From NCBI GenBank assembly GCA_937127445.1, contig CAKZLY010000015.1, positions 1 through 64,000 on the forward strand: 64,000 bases of DNA, written 5' to 3'. This document shows positions 21,433 to 41,999 of the stretch, one piece after another; within the stretch, counting starts at the first letter, position 1; each line of letters begins with the position of its first letter. The notes below the pieces were generated by a model. That model searched no databases. It saw nothing but the letters and a program-made list of their open reading frames with translations, and was not told the DNA's origin. The position numbers were made by a program, and so were the translations under genes. This DNA is from Eximiradius sp. (GTDB lineage: Bacteria > Bacteroidota > Ignavibacteria > Kapaibacteriales > UBA2268).

Positions 21433-22539
21433 ATGAGTAATAAAACCTACAAACCTGAGTGGCAGCCAGAAAATGCAGGCAAAGAATACGCTTCATTTGT
21501 TATGCCGGGAGTTGAAATAAATCCAACCGTTAAAAAGACATACAAAGCGAAAAAAGTAAAATTAACTGTTGATGAATATGTTAAGGGTGTTTTAGAACAG
21601 AATATTACAATTTTTTCTAAAACAATCACATTAATTGAGAGTAATTCCGAAGAACACATAAAAATCGGACAAGAAGTACTGAAGAAAATATTACCATACA
21701 CTGGGAAATCAGTCAGAATAGGTATTACTGGTTCGCCCGGTGCAGGGAAAAGCACATTTATTGAAGCATTCGGCACATATCTTTGCAAGCAGGGATTAAA
21801 AATTGCTGTGCTTGCAATTGACCCAAGCAGTACAATTACCAAAGGTTCAATATTAGGCGATAAAACACGAATGGAGATGCTCTCGCGTGAACCAAATGCC
21901 TTTATACGACCTTCTCCTTCGGGTGGAGCCTTAGGTGGAGTAACACGCAAAACAAGAGAAACTATTCTCTTGTGCGAGGCAGCAGAATATGACGTTATTT
22001 TAATCGAAACTGTGGGAGTTGGACAGAGTGAAGTAACTGTTCGTTCTATGGTTGATTTCTTTATGTTGCTTTTGATACCTGGCTCCGGTGATGAATTGCA
22101 AGGTATAAAAAAGGGAGTTGTCGAACTCGCTGATTTGCTCATTGTTAATAAAGCTGATGGAACAAACGTGGAAAAGGCAAAAGTTACCTGCCATCAATAC
22201 TCAATGGCATTGAACATGTTGCAACCAGCCACACAAGGATGGAAAACTCATGCTGTTACTGCATCAGCACTCACAGGAAAAGGAATTCCTGAAATCTGGA
22301 CCGAGATTAATAGATTTGTTGATACAACTAAGCGGTTGGGAGTATTCGACCAACGTCGTAGGCAACAAACTCTCGAATGGGTTTATACTATTATCGAGGA
22401 AGAACTAAGAAAGAGATTCTTCAATAATCCTGATATTTCAGCAGTGTTACCTGAGATTGAAAAAAATGTACTTTCAGGTGAATTGACTCCAACTAATGCA
22501 GTTAATCAGTTGTTAAATATATTTTTTAAAAACCAATGA
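21433..22539 (+). CDS. meaB: Methylmalonyl-CoA mutase-associated GTPase MeaB
   Basis: MeaB is a G3E-type P-loop GTPase that loads and protects the adenosylcobalamin cofactor of methylmalonyl-CoA mutase. Walker A is GSPGAGKST (100-108). Further motifs are DPSSTITKGSILGD (switch), ETVGVGQSE (Walker B region) and IVNKADG (the NKxD guanine motif). The protein (368 residues) has an extra N-terminal tail of about 40 residues compared with typical MeaB. The mutase subunits are encoded about 38 kb away at the right edge of the window. It overlaps the following gene by 4 bases. Confidence 0.94.
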   Translation: MSNKTYKPEWQPENAGKEYASFVMPGVEINPTVKKTYKAKKVKLTVDEYVKGVLEQNITIFSKTITLIESNSEEHIKIGQEVLKKILPYTGKSVRIGITGSPGAGKSTFIEAFGTYLCKQGLKIAVLAIDPSSTITKGSILGDKTRMEMLSREPNAFIRPSPSGGALGGVTRKTRETILLCEAAEYDVILIETVGVGQSEVTVRSMVDFFMLLLIPGSGDELQGIKKGVVELADLLIVNKADGTNVEKAKVTCHQYSMALNMLQPATQGWKTHAVTASALTGKGIPEIWTEINRFVDTTKRLGVFDQRRRQQTLEWVYTIIEEELRKRFFNNPDISAVLPEIEKNVLSGELTPTNAVNQLLNIFFKNQ

Positions 22540-23261: not shown

Positions 23262-24104
23262 GTGGGAAATAATTGGTTAATCGAACAAAAAGAAGATGAT
23301 AAATTAAAGCAAGAAGCCCTGCTGCAGCAAGGTAAATTGCCTCATCACGTTGCTGTAATTATGGATGGTAATGGTCGATGGGCAACAGAAAGAAACTTGC
23401 CAAGGATTGCCGGGCACAAAGAAGGCATTGAAAGCGTGCGCGAAATTGTTAAAGCTTCGTCGCAGCTGGGGATTGGATATTTGACTTTATATGCTTTTTC
23501 AATAGAAAACTGGAAAAGACCATCTGCCGAAGTGCAGGGTTTGATGCTTTTGCTTGAACATTATCTAAAAACAGAAATTGATGAATTACACAGCAATAAT
23601 GTTAGATTTCTGACAATAGGTAAGTTAAGCTCACTACCGAAGAATGTGCAAAAGTTAATAAAGTCGGCTCAGGAAAAAACAAAAAATAATAAAGGACTTA
23701 CGTTAACTTTGGCTTTAAGTTACAGCGGTCGGTGGGATATTGTTCGTGCCGTCCAAATGATAGCATTAGATGTTCGGCGCGGGAAAATATCACCAGAAGA
23801 TATAAGCGAGGAAAAATTCTCATCATATCTTCAAACAAATAGTTTGCCTGCCCCAGATTTAGTAATTCGAACAAGTGGAGAAATGAGATTAAGTAACTTT
23901 TTATTATGGGAAGTAGCTTATAGTGAGTTTTACATAACGAACAAATATTGGCCTGATTTTCGAAGAGAAGATTTTTATAATTCTATAGAAAGTTATATGC
24001 AAAGAGAGCGACGTTTTGGTAAAACATCATCACAACTGAGAGATGAAAAGTCAAGTTCAGCTTCAAATTACATTCAATGGGTTGTCAATGCGCTTAAAAA
24101 GTAG
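23262..24104 (+). CDS. uppS: Isoprenyl transferase (undecaprenyl diphosphate synthase)
   Basis: A cis-prenyltransferase that builds undecaprenyl diphosphate, the lipid carrier for peptidoglycan and surface glycans. The catalytic aspartate is D35 in HVAVIMDGNGRWA, and the C-terminal RTSGEMRLSNFLLW motif is also canonical. Length is 280 residues. The start is a GTG at 23262; no upstream in-frame ATG exists, and the first 27 residues form a charged tail. It opens the envelope cluster uppS-bamA-skp-skp-lpxD and overlaps bamA by 17 bases. Confidence 0.94.
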   Translation: MGNNWLIEQKEDDKLKQEALLQQGKLPHHVAVIMDGNGRWATERNLPRIAGHKEGIESVREIVKASSQLGIGYLTLYAFSIENWKRPSAEVQGLMLLLEHYLKTEIDELHSNNVRFLTIGKLSSLPKNVQKLIKSAQEKTKNNKGLTLTLALSYSGRWDIVRAVQMIALDVRRGKISPEDISEEKFSSYLQTNSLPAPDLVIRTSGEMRLSNFLLWEVAYSEFYITNKYWPDFRREDFYNSIESYMQRERRFGKTSSQLRDEKSSSASNYIQWVVNALKK

Positions 24105-28925: not shown

Positions 28926-29828
28926 ATGAATGAAGAGTTACTATATTTTGCTATACTTTTCGTCTATTCATTTGTTATAATATATTTGTTTATAAAGTAT
29001 TATTTTTGGAAAGTTCGATTAACAAAGGAAATTTCGCCTCATAAAAGTGTAAAAAAAATCAAAATATTGCTTATAGTCAAATTCTCATTACTTTTTGCGA
29101 TGGGAATTTTTTTTCTAAAATTATATTTTGATAAAAGCACAACATTTAATACAGACGAAAAAGAGATAGTAATTACAATAGATGTTTCGAGTAGTATGCT
29201 TGCTGGTTTTCAGAACGTAGAACGATTGCAGGCAGCAAAAGACATTGCTGAAGAAGTTGTTCAATTGTTTGAAGCTAATTATTCGATTGTTGCATTTGCA
29301 GGAAATGCTTATATAGTGTATCCACTCTCTCAGGACAAATCACAATTGATTGAAACGATAAGAAACTTATCTCCGAATAATTTTTCTTTTCAAGGGTCAA
29401 ATTTAGAGAAAGCGATTGAAAAATCCCTTTTAGCATTTTCAAAGGTGAATTCCGATAAAACAATCATAATATTGTCAGATGGAGAAATTTTTGATGGAAA
29501 TAGCGAAAAATATATTGATTATTTTAAAAAACAAACTATAAAGTGCTTTTTTGTCTCTATTGGGGATGGGGAAAGTCAAGTGGTTAAGCCAGAAATATGT
29601 AAATATGTGGATAAAGAATTCACAACAAAGTCTAACCACAATCAATTTAAGGAACTTGCAAACTTGTATAAAGGCTTTCACTTTAAAGTAGATGAATTAA
29701 CAAAAGCAAATAATTTCACAAATTATTTGAAGTCTAAAATGCAAAATCAAAGATATTCGTTATATTCTTATGAAAAAGCAATACTTTTGTTTATGTTATT
29801 GCTTCTTATTTTTATTGTGCGATTATAA
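28926..29828 (+). CDS. VWA-domain membrane protein (BatA/BatB-like)
   Basis: A 300-residue protein with two N-terminal hydrophobic helices, a von Willebrand factor A domain, and a C-terminal hydrophobic anchor (LLFMLLLLIFIV). The metal-ion-dependent adhesion site is intact: D86-x-S88-x-S90 in ITIDVSSSM, followed by the second site around LSDGEIFDG. The layout (TM, VWA, TM) is that of BatA/BatB aerotolerance-type proteins. There are no MoxR-like ATPase or other Bat genes beside it. It heads a run of cell-surface genes and starts 14 bases after lpxD. Confidence 0.85.
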   Translation: MNEELLYFAILFVYSFVIIYLFIKYYFWKVRLTKEISPHKSVKKIKILLIVKFSLLFAMGIFFLKLYFDKSTTFNTDEKEIVITIDVSSSMLAGFQNVERLQAAKDIAEEVVQLFEANYSIVAFAGNAYIVYPLSQDKSQLIETIRNLSPNNFSFQGSNLEKAIEKSLLAFSKVNSDKTIIILSDGEIFDGNSEKYIDYFKKQTIKCFFVSIGDGESQVVKPEICKYVDKEFTTKSNHNQFKELANLYKGFHFKVDELTKANNFTNYLKSKMQNQRYSLYSYEKAILLFMLLLLIFIVRL

Positions 29829-29863
29829 AAAAAATAACTAAATTAAATTTTTGTAATATTTGA

Positions 29864-30679
29864 ATGCGTAAAATGAAAAATAGAATAGTGTTCCTTTTTG
29901 TATTTTTGATTGGAAGCCAGATTTTATTTGCAAAGAATAGTATTATAATTAAAGATACCATAATTCCTATTGGTAATACATATGAAATACCTGTTTTCGG
30001 CGATTATAATGTTAATCTGTCAGGAAATATTAAATTAAGCATTATTTTTAATGCTCTGAATTTAGAAATAAGCGATGTAAAAGAAGCAGAAGGTCAGGGT
30101 TTCAAAGAGATTGCAACCGAATTTATACGGCATAAATGGGATAGCGTCGAATTGGTTGTTGCAAGCAATAATTATGCTCCAAGTTATAACGGAATATTAT
30201 TTTACCTAACAGTGCAAACGCTTGTAGGCCCTGATAGTTTGACACTAATTCGTCCCGTTTCGCTAAGAATAGACAACGCAGAAGTTGATTGTGAATTCAA
30301 AAGTGCAGCAATAACAACAAAATCGCCAATTGTAGAACAAAAGTACATTGAAAGTATTTCGCTGGTTTATCCTAACCCATTTGATTACGAAGCAACTGTG
30401 AATTTCATAATTGAAGAAAAAACAAATGTAGAAATACACATTTTTAATACTGCGGGAATGAAAGTATTTGAATTTAACAATAATTCTGATGAAATAAGAT
30501 ATTCGATTTTTAATGAAAAAGATGAGCAAATCGAGAATTCTCATAACCTGATACTTGACAAAGGTAGATATAAAATTGTTTTTTCGCCACACAAAAATAG
30601 ATTTTCAAGTGGATTATATTATTTAGTTCTCAAAACAAAGAAAGGAACATACAAAACTAATTTTATTTACAACAAATAA
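29864..30679 (+). CDS. Secreted protein with cohesin-like region and T9SS sorting domain
   Basis: A 271-residue protein with a signal peptide (ending LFAK), a beta-rich region that resembles a cohesin-like fold by its pattern of alternating strands (about 30-150), and a C-terminal type IX secretion sorting domain. The sorting domain starts VYPNPFDYEATVNF, contains VEIHIFNTAGMKVFEF and ends GLYYLVLKTKKGTYKTNF, all standard. It is somewhat long (about 105 residues) owing to an insertion before GLYYL. Such proteins are displayed on or released from the cell surface. Its neighbours are also surface proteins. Confidence 0.8.
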   Translation: MRKMKNRIVFLFVFLIGSQILFAKNSIIIKDTIIPIGNTYEIPVFGDYNVNLSGNIKLSIIFNALNLEISDVKEAEGQGFKEIATEFIRHKWDSVELVVASNNYAPSYNGILFYLTVQTLVGPDSLTLIRPVSLRIDNAEVDCEFKSAAITTKSPIVEQKYIESISLVYPNPFDYEATVNFIIEEKTNVEIHIFNTAGMKVFEFNNNSDEIRYSIFNEKDEQIENSHNLILDKGRYKIVFSPHKNRFSSGLYYLVLKTKKGTYKTNFIYNK

Positions 30680-30686
30680 TAATAAA

Positions 30687-33059
30687 ATGATAAAAAAAAC
30701 ATTATACATACTTGTTTTGTTTATTTCAATTAATATTTTGGCTCAAGAAAAACAAGATACAGCCTATAATCCTTCGATTGTAAAAAATCCAGAAGGACGT
30801 GAATTCTGGCTTTGCTTTTTAAAAAACTTCAAAGATGATGACCGGAAACTATCTAAATCGAATGAATTGCAATTAGAATTCTTCATTACAAGCGATAAAG
30901 ATGCTAACGTTGTAATTGAGATTAGAAGCATTGGTTACAGAAATAGTTTATTTGTACAAGCAGGAACAATTAAAAATGTTAAGATAGATGTACAAGCACA
31001 AGTGCGAAGCTTTGATAATATAGAAGAAAAGCAAGGAATACACATAACCTCAGACTATCCAATAACAGTGTATGGTTTAAATCGAAGATATCAGACAACC
31101 GACACATATTTAGGGCTACCAGTTGAGGTATTGGGAACAGAATACAGAATTATGTCATATTACGTAACAGATGACTTGCTTTCAATTGCGGCAGTTGTTG
31201 CTACCGAAGATAATACTATTGTTGAGATCACACCATCGGTTGATACATATTCCGGGAAAAAACGCGGAGAAACATTTCGGGTAACACTTAATCGAGGTGA
31301 TGTATATCAAGTAGGTGGAACAAAAGTATCCAAGAGCGATTTGACTGGAACTTACATACGAGCAAACAAAAGAATTGCCGTTTTTGGAGGACATCAATGT
31401 TCGTATGTACCAAATGTCGTTCCAGAGATAATTGCTTGCAATCATTTAGCTGAGCAGCTGCCACCTATTCATTCGTGGGGGAAGCATTTTTATATAGGGA
31501 AATTTAAATTTCGAACCAAATATACATATAGAGTATTAGCACATTATCCTGATACTAAAATTTTTGAAAACACTAATTTGGTTGCAATTTTAAAAACAGG
31601 TCAATTTTTCGAGCAAACAACTGACAAGGACATACAAATTACAGCCGACAAACCAGTACTTGTTGCGCAATACTCGCAAGGTTTTAAAAATGGGGATTCT
31701 ATTGGGGACCCGATGATGCTTCTGATTAGTCCAACTCAACAATTTTTAAGAAAATACCGATTTGCTACGCCTGTTAGCGGGGACTGGGAACATCTTGTAA
31801 ATATTGTCGTCCCAACGGAAGCAATAAATACAATACAGCTTGATGGTAAAGCAATAGATACTAATGAATTTAGACCATTCGGGCTAAGTCGATATTCCAT
31901 TGCATCTTTGTCTATTTCGTATGGAAGTCATATTATTGAGGGGGCCTTACCATTTGGAATGTATTCATATGGTTTTGGAAAAGGATTTGATGCATTTGAC
32001 GCTTATGGTACGATGGGCGGACAGTCTTTCATAGAGTATTCGGTTACGCGTGATATAAACCCACCAACAGCAGATGAAAAAATAATTAACGGGAAGTATA
32101 TGGTACTGCTAAGAGATGACCGTCCCGACGATACTGGAATTAAAGACTTAAAAATTATGGATAATAATAATATTCAATTCAAAGAGCCAACAATAGTAGA
32201 AGCAACACCACAATTAAATTTAGAAATTTCGCCGCTATCTGCTGTTGAGGAAGGTAGAATTTCGTTTAGAATAAGAGACATAGCTTTAAATGAAGCATTT
32301 TATACAGTTTGCTATGTTTATGATGATTATGAAGGGCATTATAAGTTCTTTTTAAACAGTGGATTAGATGTTAAGTGTGCAATTGATTTAGGCTATAGTG
32401 TTGGGTTATTCATAAAGCCATCGTTAGTAACAAATCAAGTTGATTTTTCAAATACGGGAAATGTTTCTTCTAATGGAAAATTCAAGAATTCATCTTCAAG
32501 TTCGCTGGGGTATGGCTTATTTGTATCGAAAACACTTAACCCAAAATGGCAAATCGCAACACAATTTTCTTTTGAGAAATATGCAGGCACAATCTCGTCA
32601 CCTGACACAAACATTGCGTTTGTTCGCGATATTAACACAGGTGAATTAAAACGTTTCAGGGAACAGACAAATTTAGAACTAACAGGTAGTTACCTTCAAC
32701 TTATTGTTTCTGCTAATTATTCTTTTTGGGACTATTTTTACTCCAAATTTGGGTTAAGTTTCGATATTAATTCTTCATCAACAATTTCTTACACAAGAGA
32801 AATTCTAGAACCTATTGATTTTGTTTATTCAAACAACAAAAGAAAAATTAAGCCTAACAATGCTCCAAATGAGATTAATTCAATGAGTTCTGTTGCTCTT
32901 GGGATTAATGTTGGTGCAGGAATTAGTTACGGGATTTATAAGAGATTTTATGCGTTCGGTGAATTATCCATTAATCAGCATATTACTAATATAATAGATT
33001 ACGGCAGTTGGAAAATGAATATGATTTCGCTAATTATGGGGATTAAGTACAAACTATGA
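30687..33059 (+). CDS. IgGFc-binding-like N-terminal domain fused to outer-membrane barrel
   Basis: A 790-residue exported protein. After a signal peptide (ending ILAQ), residues about 30-430 resemble the IgGFc-binding protein N-terminal family: GREFWLCFLKNF, VYGLNRRYQTTD, TYIRANKRIAVFGGHQC, DKPVLVAQYSQG and SYGFGKGFDAF. About 430-560 forms an Ig-like link. The last 230 residues (from about 560) look like a beta-barrel (strands with CAIDLGYSVGLF and LGINVGAGISYGIY). This combination fits an adhesin or receptor anchored in the outer membrane. The ligand is unknown; the family name reflects a eukaryotic homologue, not a known activity here. Confidence 0.75.
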   Translation: MIKKTLYILVLFISINILAQEKQDTAYNPSIVKNPEGREFWLCFLKNFKDDDRKLSKSNELQLEFFITSDKDANVVIEIRSIGYRNSLFVQAGTIKNVKIDVQAQVRSFDNIEEKQGIHITSDYPITVYGLNRRYQTTDTYLGLPVEVLGTEYRIMSYYVTDDLLSIAAVVATEDNTIVEITPSVDTYSGKKRGETFRVTLNRGDVYQVGGTKVSKSDLTGTYIRANKRIAVFGGHQCSYVPNVVPEIIACNHLAEQLPPIHSWGKHFYIGKFKFRTKYTYRVLAHYPDTKIFENTNLVAILKTGQFFEQTTDKDIQITADKPVLVAQYSQGFKNGDSIGDPMMLLISPTQQFLRKYRFATPVSGDWEHLVNIVVPTEAINTIQLDGKAIDTNEFRPFGLSRYSIASLSISYGSHIIEGALPFGMYSYGFGKGFDAFDAYGTMGGQSFIEYSVTRDINPPTADEKIINGKYMVLLRDDRPDDTGIKDLKIMDNNNIQFKEPTIVEATPQLNLEISPLSAVEEGRISFRIRDIALNEAFYTVCYVYDDYEGHYKFFLNSGLDVKCAIDLGYSVGLFIKPSLVTNQVDFSNTGNVSSNGKFKNSSSSSLGYGLFVSKTLNPKWQIATQFSFEKYAGTISSPDTNIAFVRDINTGELKRFREQTNLELTGSYLQLIVSANYSFWDYFYSKFGLSFDINSSSTISYTREILEPIDFVYSNNKRKIKPNNAPNEINSMSSVALGINVGAGISYGIYKRFYAFGELSINQHITNIIDYGSWKMNMISLIMGIKYKL

Positions 33060-33718
33060 AAGAAATAATAGGAATTATCAATAAAGAAATTGTTAGTGAA
33101 TTTAGAACGAAATCATCGCTTGCTACAGTTGGTTTATTTATTGTAACGACTATCACAATCATAGGAATAGGCATTGGGAACGAACCAATAAATGGCCAAA
33201 TTGCTGGTGGTTTGCTATGGGTTGTTATGTTTTTTTCGTCGATGGTAGGGCTTTCAAAAATATTCATTCTGGAAGAGGAACGCGGCACATCAATGTTCTT
33301 ATTAATTCAAGCAAATTCTGGTTACATATATTTCGGGAAATTAGTTTATAATACCTTATTAAGTTTAACCATCTATTTTATCACCATACTGTTATTTTTA
33401 TTTTTTCTCAATCAGGTCAGCATTAATTCGTGGAATGTGTTTATATTAACAATGCTGCTATCATCAATTGGGTTGGCGGCTGCTACCACAATTATTTCGG
33501 CATTAATATCAAAAGCTGGGAGCAAGAACGCCCTCTTCCCTGTTCTTGCGTTCCCTGTTTTGCTTCCACTTATTTTTATTGGAATAAGTTTAACGATTGA
33601 CTCAATAGAAGGCATTAGTTTAGCAAAAGCCTCGAACAACCTCAATATGCTTGTTGCTTATAGTGGTCTCAATATTATTCTATCATATTATTTATTTGAT
33701 TATATATGGCGAGAATAA
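33056..33718 (+). CDS. ccmB: CcmB-like ABC-transporter permease
   Basis: A 220-residue membrane protein with six hydrophobic helices. The start MKEIIGIINKEIVSEFRTKS, the GGLLWVVMFFSSMVGLSKIF helix and the LEEERGTSMFLLIQA loop match CcmB, the permease of the CcmABC cytochrome c maturation system; FPVLLPLIFIGI near the C-terminus is also typical. The gene overlaps the barrel gene by 4 bases. No ccmA, ccmC or other cytochrome c maturation gene is present in the window, so the partner ATPase must be encoded elsewhere or the protein has been recruited for another use. Confidence 0.8.
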   Translation: MKEIIGIINKEIVSEFRTKSSLATVGLFIVTTITIIGIGIGNEPINGQIAGGLLWVVMFFSSMVGLSKIFILEEERGTSMFLLIQANSGYIYFGKLVYNTLLSLTIYFITILLFLFFLNQVSINSWNVFILTMLLSSIGLAAATTIISALISKAGSKNALFPVLAFPVLLPLIFIGISLTIDSIEGISLAKASNNLNMLVAYSGLNIILSYYLFDYIWRE

Positions 33719-33783
33719 TTTGTAACTATAATTACAAATTGGTTGTTATATAAATGTCACAAAATTTACAATTGGAATAATAT

Positions 33784-36700
33784 ATGATAAAATTAAATTT
33801 TGTTTTAATTTTAATAATAATAAATATTTGTCAAGTATTTTCAGCAATTACAATTAAATATTCAAATTTAGACCTTTCGAAAGCACCGGCTGGATATATT
33901 GAAGTTGAAGTTTTTCAAGACAATGTCCCAATTGATAATTTAACAGTAGATGATGTGTTAATAATCGAACTAACTCGCACAAAAAAACCTGACAAAGTAG
34001 AAAAAATTTCAGGAACAAAATTTGCTATCAGCTGGCGTACCCCGTTAGAAACATATCCAACTTATATAAAACCAACAAATCCCGATGATGTACCATTGAT
34101 TGGTTTATCACTAATCATTTCACACGATGGAGAAATCGGTAAATTAAGCATTCCTTATGAAAATCCGGGTTTACCGATATTAGTAATTAAAGAAGCTCAT
34201 AGTGGCATTCAGCAGAAAGAGCTTTCTTTTGAGAAAACGAACAAAAACCAGATATACGTAATTGCATTTACTAATAAGGGATCGATTGATAAAAAATTGA
34301 GATTAGACTCAATTACATTTACAAGTCCATATTTTTCATACAATTGGCAAGGCACTTCTTTTGATATGTATTCTCGACCTCCGATGGAATTAGAAAACAG
34401 TACACATTATTTAGTTGATATAAATTATCAATCGCCTGGTGACAATAGACCTATAAGAGCATTGATGCAACTCCATTACAATAATGGGATGATAAAAAGT
34501 CTTCCGCTTTTAGCAGGGAATCTTGAAGTAAAACAAACTACAATGTTGCAATTGCTTAAACCAAATGGTGGAGAAAAACTTACTCCTTGCGAAACATACG
34601 AAATTAAATGGAAAGGGCATTCGAAAGACCAGCCTGTCATTGTTGAGTATTCTATTGATAATGGACGCAGTTGGCTGCAAATTGCCAAGGTAATGGACTC
34701 AGTTTATAAATGGATTGTCCCAAATGTTGAAACTTCATCTGCATTGGTGCGAGTTCGCCAGGAATTTACAAAAGCAAATGAGGTTGTGCTAAAAGAAGAT
34801 TGGTCTAACATTACCAAAATTGCTTTCAACTCTAATGGTGCAAAAGCAATTGGTGTAAACACTCAGGGGAATATTTACGAATTTGATATTTACAACCAAC
34901 CGAATGCACCTTTGAACAAGTATTTCGCGAGTTTATCGACCAATAATTTGATAAACATAAATGTCGATTATATTAATAATGATAATGAAATTACCTATTT
35001 TTTCAGGGAAAATTATTTTTCTTTACCCAAAGCAGCATACTACAAGGTGGGGGTTTCGCCTTCATATAAAACTATACCTTCCCCAATTGACCTTAACAAA
35101 GTATATACTGACCCAAAACGCAGATTTTTCATTACAAAAAATACTTTTGAACCTAAATTTTATGTGCTGGACATTAATAATTTGTCAATCTTGAATTCTG
35201 TAATAACAAAGATGCCTGTAAGTAGTATTAGTTTCAATAAATCCGGCGATACTTTGGCGACAATTGAGATTGATGGAAGAATTAGTTTGTATAGAATAGT
35301 TGATGCAAATAACATTGTTAAAATAAAAAACTTTTTTGTTGAATATACAGCAATACCTGTTAACATTAAATTTTCACCTAACGGACAATTCCTTGCAATT
35401 TCAGTAATGCAGGAAGATAATGTAGGGACCGACACATATTTGTATGATTTAGAGAAACAAATGATTGTGAGAACTTTCCGACCTGCTGTAAATGAGCCCG
35501 TTGAGGTAGATTTTAGCCCATCAACAAATGCTATTGTAATAGGTTCGCCGAATTTAGACCAAATTGTTATATATGATTTAACAGGTTCGGGAACAAAGTC
35601 AGTTCTTGCAGGCCATTTCAATTCAATGAATGATATGAGATTAGACCCAGAAGGGTTTGCAATCTTATCTTCGTCGAATGGTGAAGGAAATTTCAAGCAT
35701 CGTTCTTTTTCTTATCCTGAATTAGATGTTTCGGACAATAATTTTAGTATTGTTGCTGCAAATTTAACTATCATTCAACCCCAGATACAGCCAATAATCA
35801 TTGGAACCGACAACTTTTATACTTTTACTGCTGAAATTTGCAATAATAGTGACGTCCCAGTATATATTTATGATGTATCTACTCAAAATGAAACCCACGT
35901 TAAAATTTTGAATTCAATATTGAGTGACACTTTATATCCAAATAATTGCTTTGAATTGCAGATAAATATAGCCCCTCAGGACACAGGGAAAATTGAAGAT
36001 CAAGTTATTTTTCACTCTTGCTACAAGGATTTTATTTTCCCAATTTCTTTCCAAAGTTTGGATAGAAAGCTTACTTTAATTAATCCTAATGGTAATATTT
36101 TCGAAGAAACTTGCTTAAGAACAAGTAAATTGACTAAATTCCCAATATTCAGGAACGACGATACTATTGATGTGCTCATAAATAGAATAAAAATCGAAGA
36201 TGGATATGGTAACATTTTCAAAATAGAAGATTTCACTTACGATACAATTATTAAACCCGGCGAAACATTATACTTAAACATTTCGTTTTCACCAGAAGAA
36301 TTGAAGGAATATTCCTGCAATCTATTTATTTATCATTCTAATCAAAACAACGTTGTGAAGCGGGTTTTACTTAAAGGCAAAGGTATTGGAACATTTTTAA
36401 CTGTAAGTCACGAGAAATTGATGTTCATCAATGAAATTAATAACCGCAAATTAATTGTTAAGAACATTAGCCAACAGAGAACAACACTTACAGAGGTGCA
36501 TTTTGAGCCCGATGGTTATTATTTTTTAAACACTCCATTACCAATAGTAATTGAAAAAAATCAATCTGTTGAGTTGGATATTGTACGAAAAAATACTTCA
36601 ATTGAACCTGTTCAAATCTATTTTACAGCAATTCCCTGTCTTGCATCAAATGCTATTATACTGGATAACTACGTTGGCACCTCACAATTAAAAATTGGAA

Positions 36701-37362
36701 AAGTCGAAGCAGACCCGCGAAAGAACGCTAAAATTGAAATATCATTTGTAAATACTGAAAATTATCCATATCAAGGTGAAAGATTTTTCGAAGGCGAAAT
36801 TAGCATTAATCAAAGGGCGTTCTATCCTCTAAGTATATTTTCGAAATACGGAAATGCAAAGATTTCATCCAATCAAGTAGTCGATAATAAAAGGCTCATT
36901 AAATTTAGAATAGAAGGTGACTTCGGTGTAAACGGAACTCTATGTGAGATAACAGGTGTTTCCGGACTTACAGATGAGGTCATTTCCCCGATAGAATGGA
37001 AAAACTCTATATTCTGGGGGACATCCGTTCAAACTAATGTGTTGGATGGTGAACTTAGACTAACAAATATCTGCGAAAATCGGCTTATAAATTCAAAATC
37101 TACTTTTATAAATAGTATTAGCCCAATTCCAGCAAAAGACATTATTAATTTATCTATTAATAATGAGGCACCAACAACAGCATATATTGAAATAACTGAT
37201 ATATTTGGAAACGTTATAATGAAAACTGAAGCAATATATCTTTCTTCTGGTTCAGGTATATTGCTCCCAATAAACGTTTCATATATGAGCAATGGAATGT
37301 ATAAGTTGGCTTTGCACACCCAAAAAGAAACTATTATCGAAAAAATTATAATACTAAGATAG
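33784..37362 (+). CDS. Large secreted protein with beta-propeller, Hydin-like domains and T9SS sorting domain
   Basis: A 1192-residue surface protein. Order of regions: signal peptide (about 1-20); N-terminal beta domain; a Kre9/KNH-like domain marked by LLKPNGGEKLTPCETYEIKW (about 258-277); a WD40/YVTN-like beta-propeller (about 330-640, repeats such as ISFNKSGDTLATIEIDG and IKFSPNGQFLAISV); ASPM/SPD-2/Hydin-like (choice-of-anchor) immunoglobulin folds (about 650-890) with cysteine pairs; further beta domains; and a C-terminal type IX sorting domain starting ISPIPAKDIINLSI and ending in KIIILR. It is probably a cell-surface binding or structural protein. Its ligand is unknown. Confidence 0.8.
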   Translation: MIKLNFVLILIIINICQVFSAITIKYSNLDLSKAPAGYIEVEVFQDNVPIDNLTVDDVLIIELTRTKKPDKVEKISGTKFAISWRTPLETYPTYIKPTNPDDVPLIGLSLIISHDGEIGKLSIPYENPGLPILVIKEAHSGIQQKELSFEKTNKNQIYVIAFTNKGSIDKKLRLDSITFTSPYFSYNWQGTSFDMYSRPPMELENSTHYLVDINYQSPGDNRPIRALMQLHYNNGMIKSLPLLAGNLEVKQTTMLQLLKPNGGEKLTPCETYEIKWKGHSKDQPVIVEYSIDNGRSWLQIAKVMDSVYKWIVPNVETSSALVRVRQEFTKANEVVLKEDWSNITKIAFNSNGAKAIGVNTQGNIYEFDIYNQPNAPLNKYFASLSTNNLININVDYINNDNEITYFFRENYFSLPKAAYYKVGVSPSYKTIPSPIDLNKVYTDPKRRFFITKNTFEPKFYVLDINNLSILNSVITKMPVSSISFNKSGDTLATIEIDGRISLYRIVDANNIVKIKNFFVEYTAIPVNIKFSPNGQFLAISVMQEDNVGTDTYLYDLEKQMIVRTFRPAVNEPVEVDFSPSTNAIVIGSPNLDQIVIYDLTGSGTKSVLAGHFNSMNDMRLDPEGFAILSSSNGEGNFKHRSFSYPELDVSDNNFSIVAANLTIIQPQIQPIIIGTDNFYTFTAEICNNSDVPVYIYDVSTQNETHVKILNSILSDTLYPNNCFELQINIAPQDTGKIEDQVIFHSCYKDFIFPISFQSLDRKLTLINPNGNIFEETCLRTSKLTKFPIFRNDDTIDVLINRIKIEDGYGNIFKIEDFTYDTIIKPGETLYLNISFSPEELKEYSCNLFIYHSNQNNVVKRVLLKGKGIGTFLTVSHEKLMFINEINNRKLIVKNISQQRTTLTEVHFEPDGYYFLNTPLPIVIEKNQSVELDIVRKNTSIEPVQIYFTAIPCLASNAIILDNYVGTSQLKIGKVEADPRKNAKIEISFVNTENYPYQGERFFEGEISINQRAFYPLSIFSKYGNAKISSNQVVDNKRLIKFRIEGDFGVNGTLCEITGVSGLTDEVISPIEWKNSIFWGTSVQTNVLDGELRLTNICENRLINSKSTFINSISPIPAKDIINLSINNEAPTTAYIEITDIFGNVIMKTEAIYLSSGSGILLPINVSYMSNGMYKLALHTQKETIIEKIIILR

Positions 37363-37377
37363 AGTAAAAGGTGAAAA

Positions 37378-39303
37378 GTGAGAAAGATCACGATATTACT
37401 TTTTTTATTATTGAGCAGTAATTCACTATTCGGGATACAAGACACAAATTATAGGAATATTTTTCTATATAGTTCATTGGCAATTCAAGGCAACTTTTAT
37501 AATTCGAATTTCCGAAGCTTGCCAGCATACCCAAGTTGTTGCACCAATTATGATTTTGCCAACGGAATGGGATATTTTCTTGGGCTTGGAATGGGATATA
37601 ATCAGGATAAAAATATACTAAACAGTGAAATTTCATATTTATTTGGTGCTAAGCTATCTGATTTATCTGCCAAATATTCAATAGATGAATTTATCGGATA
37701 TTATATTGATAAGGATATTTATCAAAAAATTATCTCTAACTATACGCTTGATGTTGATTTAATGACAATTGGAATTTTTTCTCAAATAAGTATTAAACCA
37801 CCATTGAACTTACCGCTTTTTATCTCTTTTGGTCTTAATCTCGATTTCCCAATTTCAAATGAATTATACAAAGTTGAAAAATTAAAGAAGCCTGACAATA
37901 TTACTTTTTCTGACACAAAATCAAGAATAAGAGGAGAACAATCGGGTAAAATAAATGATTTGTCCGCTGTTTTATATTCAATTTCGTTTGGCGTTGCGTA
38001 TTATACTTTCAATTTTAAGAATTTCACACTTCAACCAAAGTTTGAATTGAATTATGGGCTAAATAATGTTGTTAGAAATGTCGATTGGAAAATTGTTAGT
38101 TCCAAGCTTGGGATGGATATTAATTTTAATATTCCTAAAATTAAGGAAGAACCTAAAATTCAGCCAATAAATCCACCTATGCCTGAACCCGAAATTCCAG
38201 CTAATCCAAATTTAGAATATAATTTAACTGCAAAATACTCAAATATTGAGCTGGAAGATAGTTCCAATATAGACATACCGATTTTCAGCAACCTTGAAGC
38301 AGAGATTTCAGTACTGCCATCTATTATTTTTTTCCAGAAAAACAGCAATCAATTGAATAATGTTATTAAGCCGATAAATCCGATTGCTAAATCTATTAAT
38401 TTGGATACTGCTTTCATTAAGTTCATCAAAAATAGTGAAGTCGCTACATTAGTTACAATAAATAGATTAGAAAGTGAAAATCCAATAATTTATCAAAAAC
38501 GCAAAGATAAGATAATAGAAATTGTCAAAAATTTTGCTCCGAACAATTTAGCAAACTTTGAATTTCAAGAAAACGTTATAAAAAAAGACAGCATTAATAA
38601 AAAAACCGAGGATGAATATATATGTGCAAAATTTGAGTATAAAGATTTTAATATTAAGAGATTTAATTACTACAAAGAAACAAGAAATACTTATTATTCA
38701 AAAAACCGAAATGTTGTTTTTTTCAATGCCCAAATACCTTTTGAGTATGAGAATTATCAAATTGAGATATTCATCAATGATAGTCTTGTTTTCGAAAATA
38801 ATAATATTGATACAAGATTTAATATAATCGATGATTATTTCCTCTACCGAGGATTTGTAAATACTCCGATGAACGTCAAAACGAAAGTTAAATTAAAAAA
38901 TGGAATAGAATTAACAAATGATAAAACATATATAATAAATCCAAAACTATCGCAAATTAATTTGATTATCAATCCAAACGATGGTAAAGAATATACAATA
39001 TTAGGATTATTCGATTTCGATAGTAGTGAGTTTGCACTTTTTGACAACAGAGTACGAGAAAAAGTGCTTGACGACCTATATTATCGAGGGAAAAAACTCA
39101 CAATAATTCCGTTTACTGATAATATTGGAAGTAAAGATTATAATTATAAATTGGCTGAGAAAAGGGCTTTGGCAGCTATTAAATTATTACAATTGCGCGA
39201 CGAAGACTATAAAATTGAATATCCCGCACAATATTTATACGATAACCGAACACCATTGGGACGGATATTAAATAGAAGCGTAATAATCAGAATTGAGAAG
39301 TAA
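37378..39303 (+). CDS. OmpA-family outer-membrane protein
   Basis: A 641-residue protein with a signal peptide (MRKITILLFLLLSSNSLFG), an N-terminal beta-barrel-like region (about 20-250), a proline-rich joint (INPPMPEPEIPANP, about 265-278), a long middle region, and a C-terminal OmpA-like peptidoglycan-binding domain (LGLFDFDSSEFALFD, IIPFTDNIGSKDYNYKLAEKRA, and NRSVIIRI at the end). The OmpA signature keeps the aspartate and arginine used to bind peptidoglycan. The start is a GTG at 37378 with AAGGTG upstream. It directly follows the large T9SS protein (15 bases). Confidence 0.85.
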   Translation: MRKITILLFLLLSSNSLFGIQDTNYRNIFLYSSLAIQGNFYNSNFRSLPAYPSCCTNYDFANGMGYFLGLGMGYNQDKNILNSEISYLFGAKLSDLSAKYSIDEFIGYYIDKDIYQKIISNYTLDVDLMTIGIFSQISIKPPLNLPLFISFGLNLDFPISNELYKVEKLKKPDNITFSDTKSRIRGEQSGKINDLSAVLYSISFGVAYYTFNFKNFTLQPKFELNYGLNNVVRNVDWKIVSSKLGMDINFNIPKIKEEPKIQPINPPMPEPEIPANPNLEYNLTAKYSNIELEDSSNIDIPIFSNLEAEISVLPSIIFFQKNSNQLNNVIKPINPIAKSINLDTAFIKFIKNSEVATLVTINRLESENPIIYQKRKDKIIEIVKNFAPNNLANFEFQENVIKKDSINKKTEDEYICAKFEYKDFNIKRFNYYKETRNTYYSKNRNVVFFNAQIPFEYENYQIEIFINDSLVFENNNIDTRFNIIDDYFLYRGFVNTPMNVKTKVKLKNGIELTNDKTYIINPKLSQINLIINPNDGKEYTILGLFDFDSSEFALFDNRVREKVLDDLYYRGKKLTIIPFTDNIGSKDYNYKLAEKRALAAIKLLQLRDEDYKIEYPAQYLYDNRTPLGRILNRSVIIRIEK

Positions 39304-39328: not shown

Positions 39329-39369
39329 AAAAAGGATGCTTGCTGAAATAAATGGCAAACATCCTTTTA
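39329..39369. terminator. Bidirectional terminator
   Basis: A 14-pair stem with one mismatch (AAAAGGATG on the left, CATCCTTTT on the right, extended by TTGC/GCAA) around an 11-base loop. It lies between the convergent OmpA-family and FKBP genes. Confidence 0.85.
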
Positions 39370-40284: not shown

Positions 40285-40839
40285 TTGATAGATAGTGAAG
40301 ACAAAAATATAATAGATGATTATTTATCAAATAGTAGTAATAATGCAGCCAAAAGGCTTATTCGAAAATATGAAAAATTTGTTTTTGCTATTGCTTTGAG
40401 ATATGTGGGTTCATATGACGATGCTGAGGATTTAACACAAGAAGTATTTATCAAAGCACTGAACAATTTGAAAAAGTTTAAGCAGGACAGTTCTCTAAAA
40501 ACGTGGTTATATAGAATAACGGTAAACACTTGCTTAACATTTATGAGGAAGAAAAAAATTACGAGTTTTTTCAAACTTGACGATAATAGTGATGTAATTA
40601 AAAAACAAAAAGATTTTAGTCCAGAACAATATTATATTGCTAACGAATTAGAACGAAAGTTTTTATCTGAATTAACAAAATTACCAGAAAAACAACGAGA
40701 AACATTTGCATTGAGATACTTTGACAATTTAAGCTACGAAGAAATATCACAATTACTTGGAACAAGCGTTGGCGGACTAAAAGCGAACTATTTTCAGGCA
40801 ATAAAAAAATTATCAGAAAAACTTAAAAGTGAGATATAA
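40285..40839 (+). CDS. ECF-type RNA polymerase sigma factor
   Basis: A 184-residue sigma-70 family factor with region 2 (FAIALRYVGSYDDAEDLTQEVFIKALNNL, in pieces: the DAEDLTQEVF core is canonical) and region 4 (LPEKQRETFALRYFDNLSYEEISQLLGTS). It is of the extracytoplasmic-function type. The only workable start is TTG at 40285: an in-frame stop lies 15 bases upstream and no ATG is available at the N-terminus. It is followed by a membrane-spanning protein and a Spy-like periplasmic protein, a typical arrangement for an envelope-stress regulon. Confidence 0.92.
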   Translation: MIDSEDKNIIDDYLSNSSNNAAKRLIRKYEKFVFAIALRYVGSYDDAEDLTQEVFIKALNNLKKFKQDSSLKTWLYRITVNTCLTFMRKKKITSFFKLDDNSDVIKKQKDFSPEQYYIANELERKFLSELTKLPEKQRETFALRYFDNLSYEEISQLLGTSVGGLKANYFQAIKKLSEKLKSEI

Positions 40840-40840
40840 A

Positions 40841-41482
40841 ATGGGAAATCAAGAACAAATAAAAAAGAAACTACTCGAACTCCTTCCTGATTACGTTTTT
40901 CGGAGGCTTGGTGAAAGCGAAAGAGAATTCTTCGAAATGCATTACACAGAGTTTGAAGATATACAAAAGGAAGTGAAAGAAGCTCAGCTTTTCTTCGAGA
41001 AATTGGAACAGATGGACTTCGACAGGGTATTTCAATCTCATACTGTCAATACATCAGTAAAAGTATTGAACAAAATGGAGAGAAAAGTACGACCACAAAG
41101 TTCACTAAGATTGGTTCCTAAATTGGCACTTCCATTGATTGCTCTAATTGTAATATTTATTGCTATACAATTAGATTTACATAACAGAGGAAGATATATT
41201 AAGATTGACCAGGCTCAGATTGCAAGGCTTAGTGAACCGGTAGTTATTGATAGCTCGATTATAGATGAAGTAAATTCGCAAGATTTAGTTAAATTTATAG
41301 AATATGGAACATCAGAGAAAGAAGAAGAAATAAACGATGAAGAAATTGAAGAAATTAACAATTCTTTAGCAGAATTTATTAGTAATGATGTTGGAGTAAA
41401 TTATTTAGATGAGTTTAATATTTATAACTATTTTGAATACATTGATGAAGATATTTTTCAAGAAATAATTGAGGGAAAATAA
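40841..41482 (+). CDS. Anti-sigma-factor-like transmembrane protein
   Basis: A 213-residue protein with an N-terminal cytoplasmic part, one transmembrane helix (about 94-112) and an acidic outer part. The N-terminal segment (LLPDYVFRRLGESEREFFEMH) has the layout of zinc-finger anti-sigma domains, and the His (H34) is in place. The Cys-x2-Cys that should follow is replaced by F-E-D-I. It would therefore bind its sigma factor without zinc. It starts 1 base after the sigma gene stop; an in-frame GTG at 40829 is a less likely start. The role is inferred from position and topology. Confidence 0.7.
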   Translation: MGNQEQIKKKLLELLPDYVFRRLGESEREFFEMHYTEFEDIQKEVKEAQLFFEKLEQMDFDRVFQSHTVNTSVKVLNKMERKVRPQSSLRLVPKLALPLIALIVIFIAIQLDLHNRGRYIKIDQAQIARLSEPVVIDSSIIDEVNSQDLVKFIEYGTSEKEEEINDEEIEEINNSLAEFISNDVGVNYLDEFNIYNYFEYIDEDIFQEIIEGK

Positions 41483-41483
41483 A

Positions 41484-41999
41484 ATGAAACAAGCATTATT
41501 TTATTATCTTATCCCGCTGATATTATTATTTTCAATCATAGAAACCAAAGGACAACCTTTTCAGGGAGAAAAAGCATTTCAACGTTTTTCAACAATGAAA
41601 AAATTGAAAATGATAGAGATTTTAGCTCTTGATGAGGCGAAATCTGATAAGTTTCTGGCAAAATATACTTCGTACGACAACAAGATTTTTACTATACATA
41701 ATCAAATTGACAAAGCAACTCGTGAACTGATGGAGCTTATGAAACAGGAACGCGTTAAATTAAATGATTTGAAGAATAAGAATGCCGAAATTATTAATCT
41801 TCACTCTGAATTATCGAAAACTATGGGCGAACGATACAAAGAATTTCAGAACTTACTTAGCGACGAAGAGCTTGCAAAGTTAATACTATTCGAAAGAAAC
41901 TTTAACAATGAAGTTAGAAAGAAAATAATGGGAAGAGGACATAATAGAAATGCTCCTGACGAACCACAAGACCGACCAAGAAGAAAATATCAAAGATGA
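41484..41999 (+). CDS. Spy/CpxP-like periplasmic protein
   Basis: A 171-residue exported protein with a signal peptide (about 1-22, ending IIETKG) and a helical, charged mature part. The region FSTMKKLKMIEILALDEAKS, a coiled middle, and LLSDEELAKLILFERNF follow the pattern of Spy/CpxP/heavy-metal-sensor proteins, which bind misfolded proteins or metals in the periplasm. The ATG at 41484 has GAGG upstream. It directly follows the anti-sigma-like gene. The C-terminus is basic with RGHNRN. In similar clusters the product feeds back on the membrane-bound regulator. Confidence 0.75.
   Translation: MKQALFYYLIPLILLFSIIETKGQPFQGEKAFQRFSTMKKLKMIEILALDEAKSDKFLAKYTSYDNKIFTIHNQIDKATRELMELMKQERVKLNDLKNKNAEIINLHSELSKTMGERYKEFQNLLSDEELAKLILFERNFNNEVRKKIMGRGHNRNAPDEPQDRPRRKYQR

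Follow-up and report, generated by a model that had tools for sequence, protein, structure and literature searches.

Two type IX secretion cargo/barrel gene pairs, a ccmB gene and a stray VWA gene in a surface-gene block of Candidatus Kapabacteria

Two conserved cargo/barrel gene pairs

We analysed a 64,000-nucleotide stretch of DNA (the window; positions 1 to 64,000 of contig CAKZLY010000015.1) from Eximiradius sp., a member of Candidatus Kapabacteria, in which an earlier note had singled out six consecutive plus-strand genes as a possible surface-display or adhesion machine. In order, these genes encode a Bat-like VWA protein, a cohesin-like cargo of the type IX secretion system (T9SS; Coh), a protein joining an IgGFc-binding domain to an outer-membrane barrel (IgGFc-barrel), the permease CcmB, a second T9SS cargo (Cargo) and a barrel protein with an OmpA domain (barrel-OmpA) (Table 1). 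The six open reading frames (ORFs) and the spacings between them in 28926-39303 (35, 7, -4, 65 and 15 bases) were reproduced exactly, and family profile matches upheld the domain names for all six proteins. The block is, however, no six-gene machine, but comprises two cargo/barrel pairs (Coh/IgGFc-barrel, pair 1; Cargo/barrel-OmpA, pair 2), an ordinary ccmB gene and one stray gene, that for the VWA protein. Comparisons were made across 61 genomes of the order and, for class-level counts of CcmB, across 105 complete genomes; adjacency of Coh and IgGFc-barrel was counted over 80 loci.

Table 1. Features of the block, in window coordinates
Feature	Coordinates	Strand	Description	Support
Coh, pair 1 cargo	29864..30679	+	signal peptide, cohesin fold (~23-155), T9SS type A sorting domain (~168-271)	profiles and AlphaFold2 (AF2) model
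IgGFc-barrel, pair 1 partner	30687..33059	+	signal peptide, IgGFc_binding (139-429), immunoglobulin (Ig)-like part, predicted C-terminal 8-stranded outer-membrane barrel (565-790)	
Cargo, pair 2	33784..37362	+	1192 amino acids (aa), WD40-like propeller, HYDIN/choice-of-anchor-D Ig domain, T9SS tail	
barrel-OmpA, pair 2 partner	37378..39303	+	N-terminal outer-membrane barrel (~24-252), proline-rich hinge, middle domains, C-terminal OmpA	
ccmB	33056..33718	+	cytochrome c maturation permease, co-directional neighbour	PF03379 71 bits, cut-off 24.9
VWA gene	28926..29828	+	Bat-like VWA membrane protein, orphan, genus-restricted at this place	VWA_2 (PF13519) 61.6 bits
Terminator-like hairpin	39330..39368	.	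T-rich tract after	-15.4 kcal/mol, z = -4.8 vs shuffles

The description of Coh as a cohesin-like T9SS cargo was borne out: the AF2 model (predicted local distance difference test score, pLDDT, 93.7) matched cohesin 6kgc with a VIA Z of 13.8 (2.9 Å over 128 residues), above the non-cohesin rows, the Coh profile matched type I cohesin structures (E 4e-4), and the tail, which scored 28.0 bits against TIGR04183 (cut-off 23), lies in a region that folds as an Ig-like domain. Likewise, the fusion of an IgGFc-binding-like domain to an outer-membrane barrel is supported by a 253-bit match to PF17517 and by an AF2 model (pLDDT 87.8) whose predicted barrel fits the 8-stranded NspA, OmpW, OmpA and OprF with Z 16-17.5. 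IgGFc-barrel has a full or near full-length ortholog in almost all genomes of the order and is strongly conserved (mean column identity 46%), whereas Coh is poorly conserved (28%). ORF calls place Coh directly 5' of IgGFc-barrel at 66 of the 80 loci, and antisense ORFs hide it in this position at 4 others, the junctions being mostly overlaps of a few bases or gaps <15; in most loci read from two further lineages of the class, a smaller T9SS-tailed protein precedes IgGFc-barrel. Bacterial IgGFc_binding domains are named only by their resemblance to a human mucus protein; our literature search found no paper linking IgGFc-binding with type IX secretion, and we found no function assigned to the pair.

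Variants occur around pair 1. In several genera, a 420-aa family of secreted-looking proteins, for which no Pfam or NCBIfam match was found, is encoded directly 5' of Coh (L096:7698-8969 and 13 other loci), and in another family a DUF4397 protein holds this place. In one case (L153:3116-5593 and its upstream copy; L065 represents this locus too), a barrel-less IgGFc protein of 458 aa separates Coh from the full IgGFc-barrel gene. Tandem IgGFc proteins, the first with a T9SS tail and the next with a barrel, are found at L181:4719-9171 and L182:2625-7183, where the C-terminal modules seem interchangeable.

The tail of Cargo was recognized by Por_Secre_tail (32.1 bits, cut-off 27), with TIGR04183 staying below its threshold (20.0 bits, cut-off 23), and its Ig domain by PF22544 (31.7 bits, cut-off 25.5). 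Orthologs of Cargo, at 22-32% identity, occur in about 40 of the 61 genomes, several families being without one. The OmpA domain of its partner falls below the PF00691 cut-off (21.3 bits against 27.2, E 3.6e-4); the peptidoglycan-binding residues D581 and R596 are invariant in six aligned OmpA sequences. Cargo has barrel-OmpA as its direct neighbour in at least 30 of 40 genomes, from six families (gaps 18-692). This pair normally sits at another locus, far from that of IgGFc-barrel; in one genus of the same family (G140, G154, G163) the two loci are about 10 kb apart.

Judged from profile alignment, the N-terminal barrel of barrel-OmpA and the C-terminal barrel of IgGFc-barrel are, unexpectedly, homologous over their whole length (hhalign probability 98.4, E 7.8e-15, 218 columns), so that both T9SS cargos in the block precede members of one barrel family. 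At a paralogous locus of the source genome (G000:C14:312814-317686; L189:6815-11687), these domains are divided up differently: a single protein of 1334 aa combines IgGFc with HYDIN-type repeats, a cohesin-like region and a T9SS tail, and the next gene, about 10 bp further on, encodes a bare barrel of 285 aa from this barrel family.

A proposed mechanism and its rivals

The source genome encodes SprA (PF14349 above cut-off, in a 2284-aa frame in G000:C18). Given the conserved pairing, the homology of the two barrels, the re-split paralog and the presence of SprA, and by analogy with studied systems, we consider it rather probable that the pairs are T9SS cargos with cognate barrels, comparable to SprB-SprF or PG1035-PorP-PorE but built on a small barrel of 8 strands whose periplasmic parts can be exchanged. 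The first gene of each pair would provide the cargo, which carries a Sec signal and a type A tail and would leave through the SprA translocon; the second would provide a member of the one 8-stranded family, which would receive this cargo or retain it at the outer membrane. The cohesin-fold cargo of pair 1 would meet a barrel whose periplasmic N-terminus bears the large IgGFc module, and the propeller/HYDIN cargo of pair 2 one whose periplasmic OmpA domain could hold the complex to peptidoglycan. Physical binding of cargo by barrel and the anchoring role we infer. The earlier idea of anchoring through barrel and OmpA may live on for the two conserved pairs, though not for the block as a whole. 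As a more tentative generalization, which we hold to be possible but doubtful, a distinct family of 8-stranded barrels might act as dedicated receivers or anchors of individual type A cargos in Kapabacteria and relatives, with IgGFc, OmpA or nothing as the periplasmic module, in parallel to PorP/SprF and from a different barrel.

Several observations weigh against a cognate relation of cargo and barrel. First, PorV acts as a general shuttle for type A tails in the species that have been studied (PMC12618676), and a dedicated barrel may therefore be unnecessary. Second, one clade (L156, L166-L169) has IgGFc-barrel without Coh upstream, RuvA taking this position in some members. Third, of 20 further barrel-OmpA paralogs, 12 have no gene for a T9SS-tailed protein directly upstream. 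The other 8 do have one, which speaks for the pairing, as such tails occur in about 6% of ORFs examined (about 3% without the Coh set); this count is indicative only because the paralogs were chosen from the best matches outside the Cargo pair and not at random, and include two near-duplicates, and five of the eight tails were recognized by profile and three wholly or partly by eye on the C-terminus. A separate point concerns the location of the IgGFc domain: IgGFc domains related to that of pair 1 bear T9SS tails and are presumably exported, which counts against a periplasmic placement of this domain.

The first two of these points would also suit a reading in which the pairs are co-transcribed without direct binding, the barrels being structural proteins of the OmpA/OmpW type, which often merely stabilise the envelope, and PorV handling the cargo. 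We regard this as rather unlikely, on the grounds that the pairing is order-wide with translational coupling and recurs for several cargo types, and that the re-split paralog favours a specific relation of cargo and barrel.

In an 8-stranded barrel of this kind both termini point into the periplasm, and from this predicted topology the IgGFc module would be expected there; exposure of this domain at the surface is thus not favoured. An autotransporter-like (type V) arrangement, with the IgGFc domain outside and Coh binding it at the surface, would agree with the order of N-terminal passenger and C-terminal barrel, with the presumed secretion of the T9SS-tailed relatives and with the seeming exchange of tail and barrel on IgGFc proteins. 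However, type V autotransporters have a 12-stranded barrel and a pore-spanning helix before strand 1, while the barrel of IgGFc-barrel is predicted to be 8-stranded (Z ~17 to NspA, OmpW and OmpA) and too narrow for a passenger, and its AF2 model has no helix ahead of the first strand (none before residue 570), which makes this arrangement improbable. The IgGFc profile gave no match to solved structures by sequence, and the matches listed by fold searches with IgGFc-barrel were taken up by its barrel, which is not evidence of a new IgGFc fold.

The ccmB gene, the VWA gene and the limits of the block

CcmB of the window is an ordinary cytochrome c maturation permease that stands outside the surface pairs, and we found no support for the notion that a surface machine uses it to move a small molecule. 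CcmB is present as a single copy in 104 of the 105 complete genomes of the class and occurs in 59 of the 61 genomes of the order. It had been called lone, which is true of its immediate surroundings but not of the genome, where CcmE and CcmF are encoded together on C7, CcmC on C15 and CcmA at C6:88997-89671. The CcmA ortholog, which shares 41-44% identity with CcmA proteins from other orders, was found by comparing ABC genes with these proteins; the family profile search gave a top match of 114.9 bits, under the 131.6 cut-off, and the window CcmB itself did not reach the cut-off of the TIGR01190 equivalog (33.6 bits against 156). A new transporter was considered for this gene and rejected, given its single copy, its class-wide presence and the remaining ccm set in the genome. 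Like System I (CcmABCEF), the genome thus has its single CcmB and orthologs of CcmA, C, E and F; unlike the ccmA-B-C-E-F cluster of other orders of the class, the genes are scattered here and ccmB is flanked by surface genes.

The neighbourhood of ccmB and the IgGFc gene is old: 20 of 58 genomes, belonging to five families, have the two within 1.5 kb of each other. In four cases (L058, L069, L072, L134) the Coh/IgGFc-barrel pair heads a ccm cluster with ccmB and ccmC, and in some of them ccmE or ccmF; these clusters sometimes hold a second IgGFc-barrel copy, and in most Kapabacteria the ccm genes are scattered. A role of the pair in cytochrome c maturation or in extracellular electron transfer could be argued from these four clusters and from the position of ccmB directly after IgGFc-barrel at 39 of the 80 loci, but CcmB lies elsewhere in about half of the pair-bearing genomes, the ccm clusters of other orders are without the pair and no CXXCH motif was seen in its two window proteins, so that we consider such a role very improbable.

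The VWA protein, which had been counted as a member of the system, is better described as a genus-limited Bat-like orphan. No ortholog was found outside the genus among the genomes of the order, only Bat-like matches of about 24-31% identity. As in BatA and BatB, its layout read from the sequence is transmembrane segment-VWA-transmembrane segment, with weak family matches; unlike BatA, it has no match to PF07584 (the BatA N-terminal domain), and its neighbours are LpxD and Coh instead of MoxR and DUF58, which in a relative that we examined closely (L209) form a MoxR-DUF58-BatD-BatA operon. Bat-like VWA matches number one in the source genome and two or more in sister genera, where at least one lies in such an operon; the operon may have been lost in the source genome.

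The six genes form the tail of a run of 13 plus-strand genes that starts at 21433, includes BamA, two Skp-like genes and LpxD, and is closed by the hairpin, which sits between the convergent barrel-OmpA and FKBP genes. As LpxD ends only 14 bp 5' of the VWA gene within this longer run, the 5' edge of the six-gene block is no natural boundary. A promoter scan stayed at background level (77 found, 72.6 expected), and neither Rfam matches nor tRNAs were found within the window. The mechanically called start of the BamA ORF overlaps UppS by 62 bases (window 24043-24104), the true start probably being later. Just past the terminator and the FKBP gene, two small genes overlapping end to end, possibly an anti-sigma unit, come after a sigma-factor-like gene (window 40285-41999).

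Two same-genus genomes, assembled independently, have the arrangement, which is hence not an assembly artefact: one (L093) in full, VWA-Coh-IgGFc-CcmB-Cargo-OmpA, and the other (L092) as LpxD-VWA-Coh-IgGFc-CcmB up to the contig end. The full order was not seen outside the genus among the genomes of the order. The phyletic patterns are separate, IgGFc-barrel being nearly order-wide, Cargo absent from several families, VWA restricted to the genus and CcmB class-wide; a unique gene order and separate patterns had been named in the earlier note as grounds against a system, and this is largely what was found. A single surface-display or adhesion machine of all six genes, for which tight co-directional spacing and the order kept in L093 and, as far as the contig reaches, in L092 might speak, is therefore highly unlikely, given an order absent beyond the genus, members that differ in distribution and occupy separate loci elsewhere, a ccmB that belongs to a complete, dispersed ccm set, a VWA gene without ortholog outside the genus, and an LpxD gene linked as tightly as the others.

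Comparison with known systems

Pair 1 is conserved widely across an order that has hardly been cultured. If the pairs act as cargo and cognate barrel, sorting of type A T9SS cargos would not always be left to one general shuttle, PorV; a second barrel fold would have been recruited as a cargo-specific partner, and bacterial IgGFc_binding domains would acquire a testable role.

In SprB-SprF and PG1035-PorP-PorE, the gene after that of the cargo encodes a barrel, which picks up the cargo and anchors it (PMC9143113, PMC12618676), the SprF-type barrel being required for both secretion and surface anchoring in the known case (PMC12618676, PMC9143113). As in SprB-SprF of Flavobacterium johnsoniae and other type B cargo/PorP-SprF pairs, a T9SS cargo gene stands here directly before a gene for an outer-membrane barrel. 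By contrast, the known pairs combine type B tails with 14-stranded FadL-type barrels, whereas those described here combine type A tails with a barrel of predicted 8-stranded OmpA/OmpW fold and periplasmic modules: neither window barrel protein matched the PorP_SprF family at E <= 1, and no type B tail exceeded its cut-off (CHU_C 18.2 bits, cut-off 27). With PG1035-PorP-PorE of Porphyromonas gingivalis, where these parts act together (PMC9143113), pair 2 shares the combination of a cargo, an outer-membrane barrel and a periplasmic OmpA-type peptidoglycan binder; unlike there, barrel and OmpA form one protein in pair 2, and the propeller is on the cargo rather than on PorE. Small barrels in such roles have precedents in Bt1926, the 8-stranded partner of the S-layer protein Bt1927 in Bacteroides thetaiotaomicron (PMC12578637), and in PorG, an 8-stranded T9SS component (PMC12635249). 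The present pairs carry a different cargo from that of Bt1927-Bt1926. Read in this way, the two pairs are a modest variation on a known bacterial scheme of surface display.

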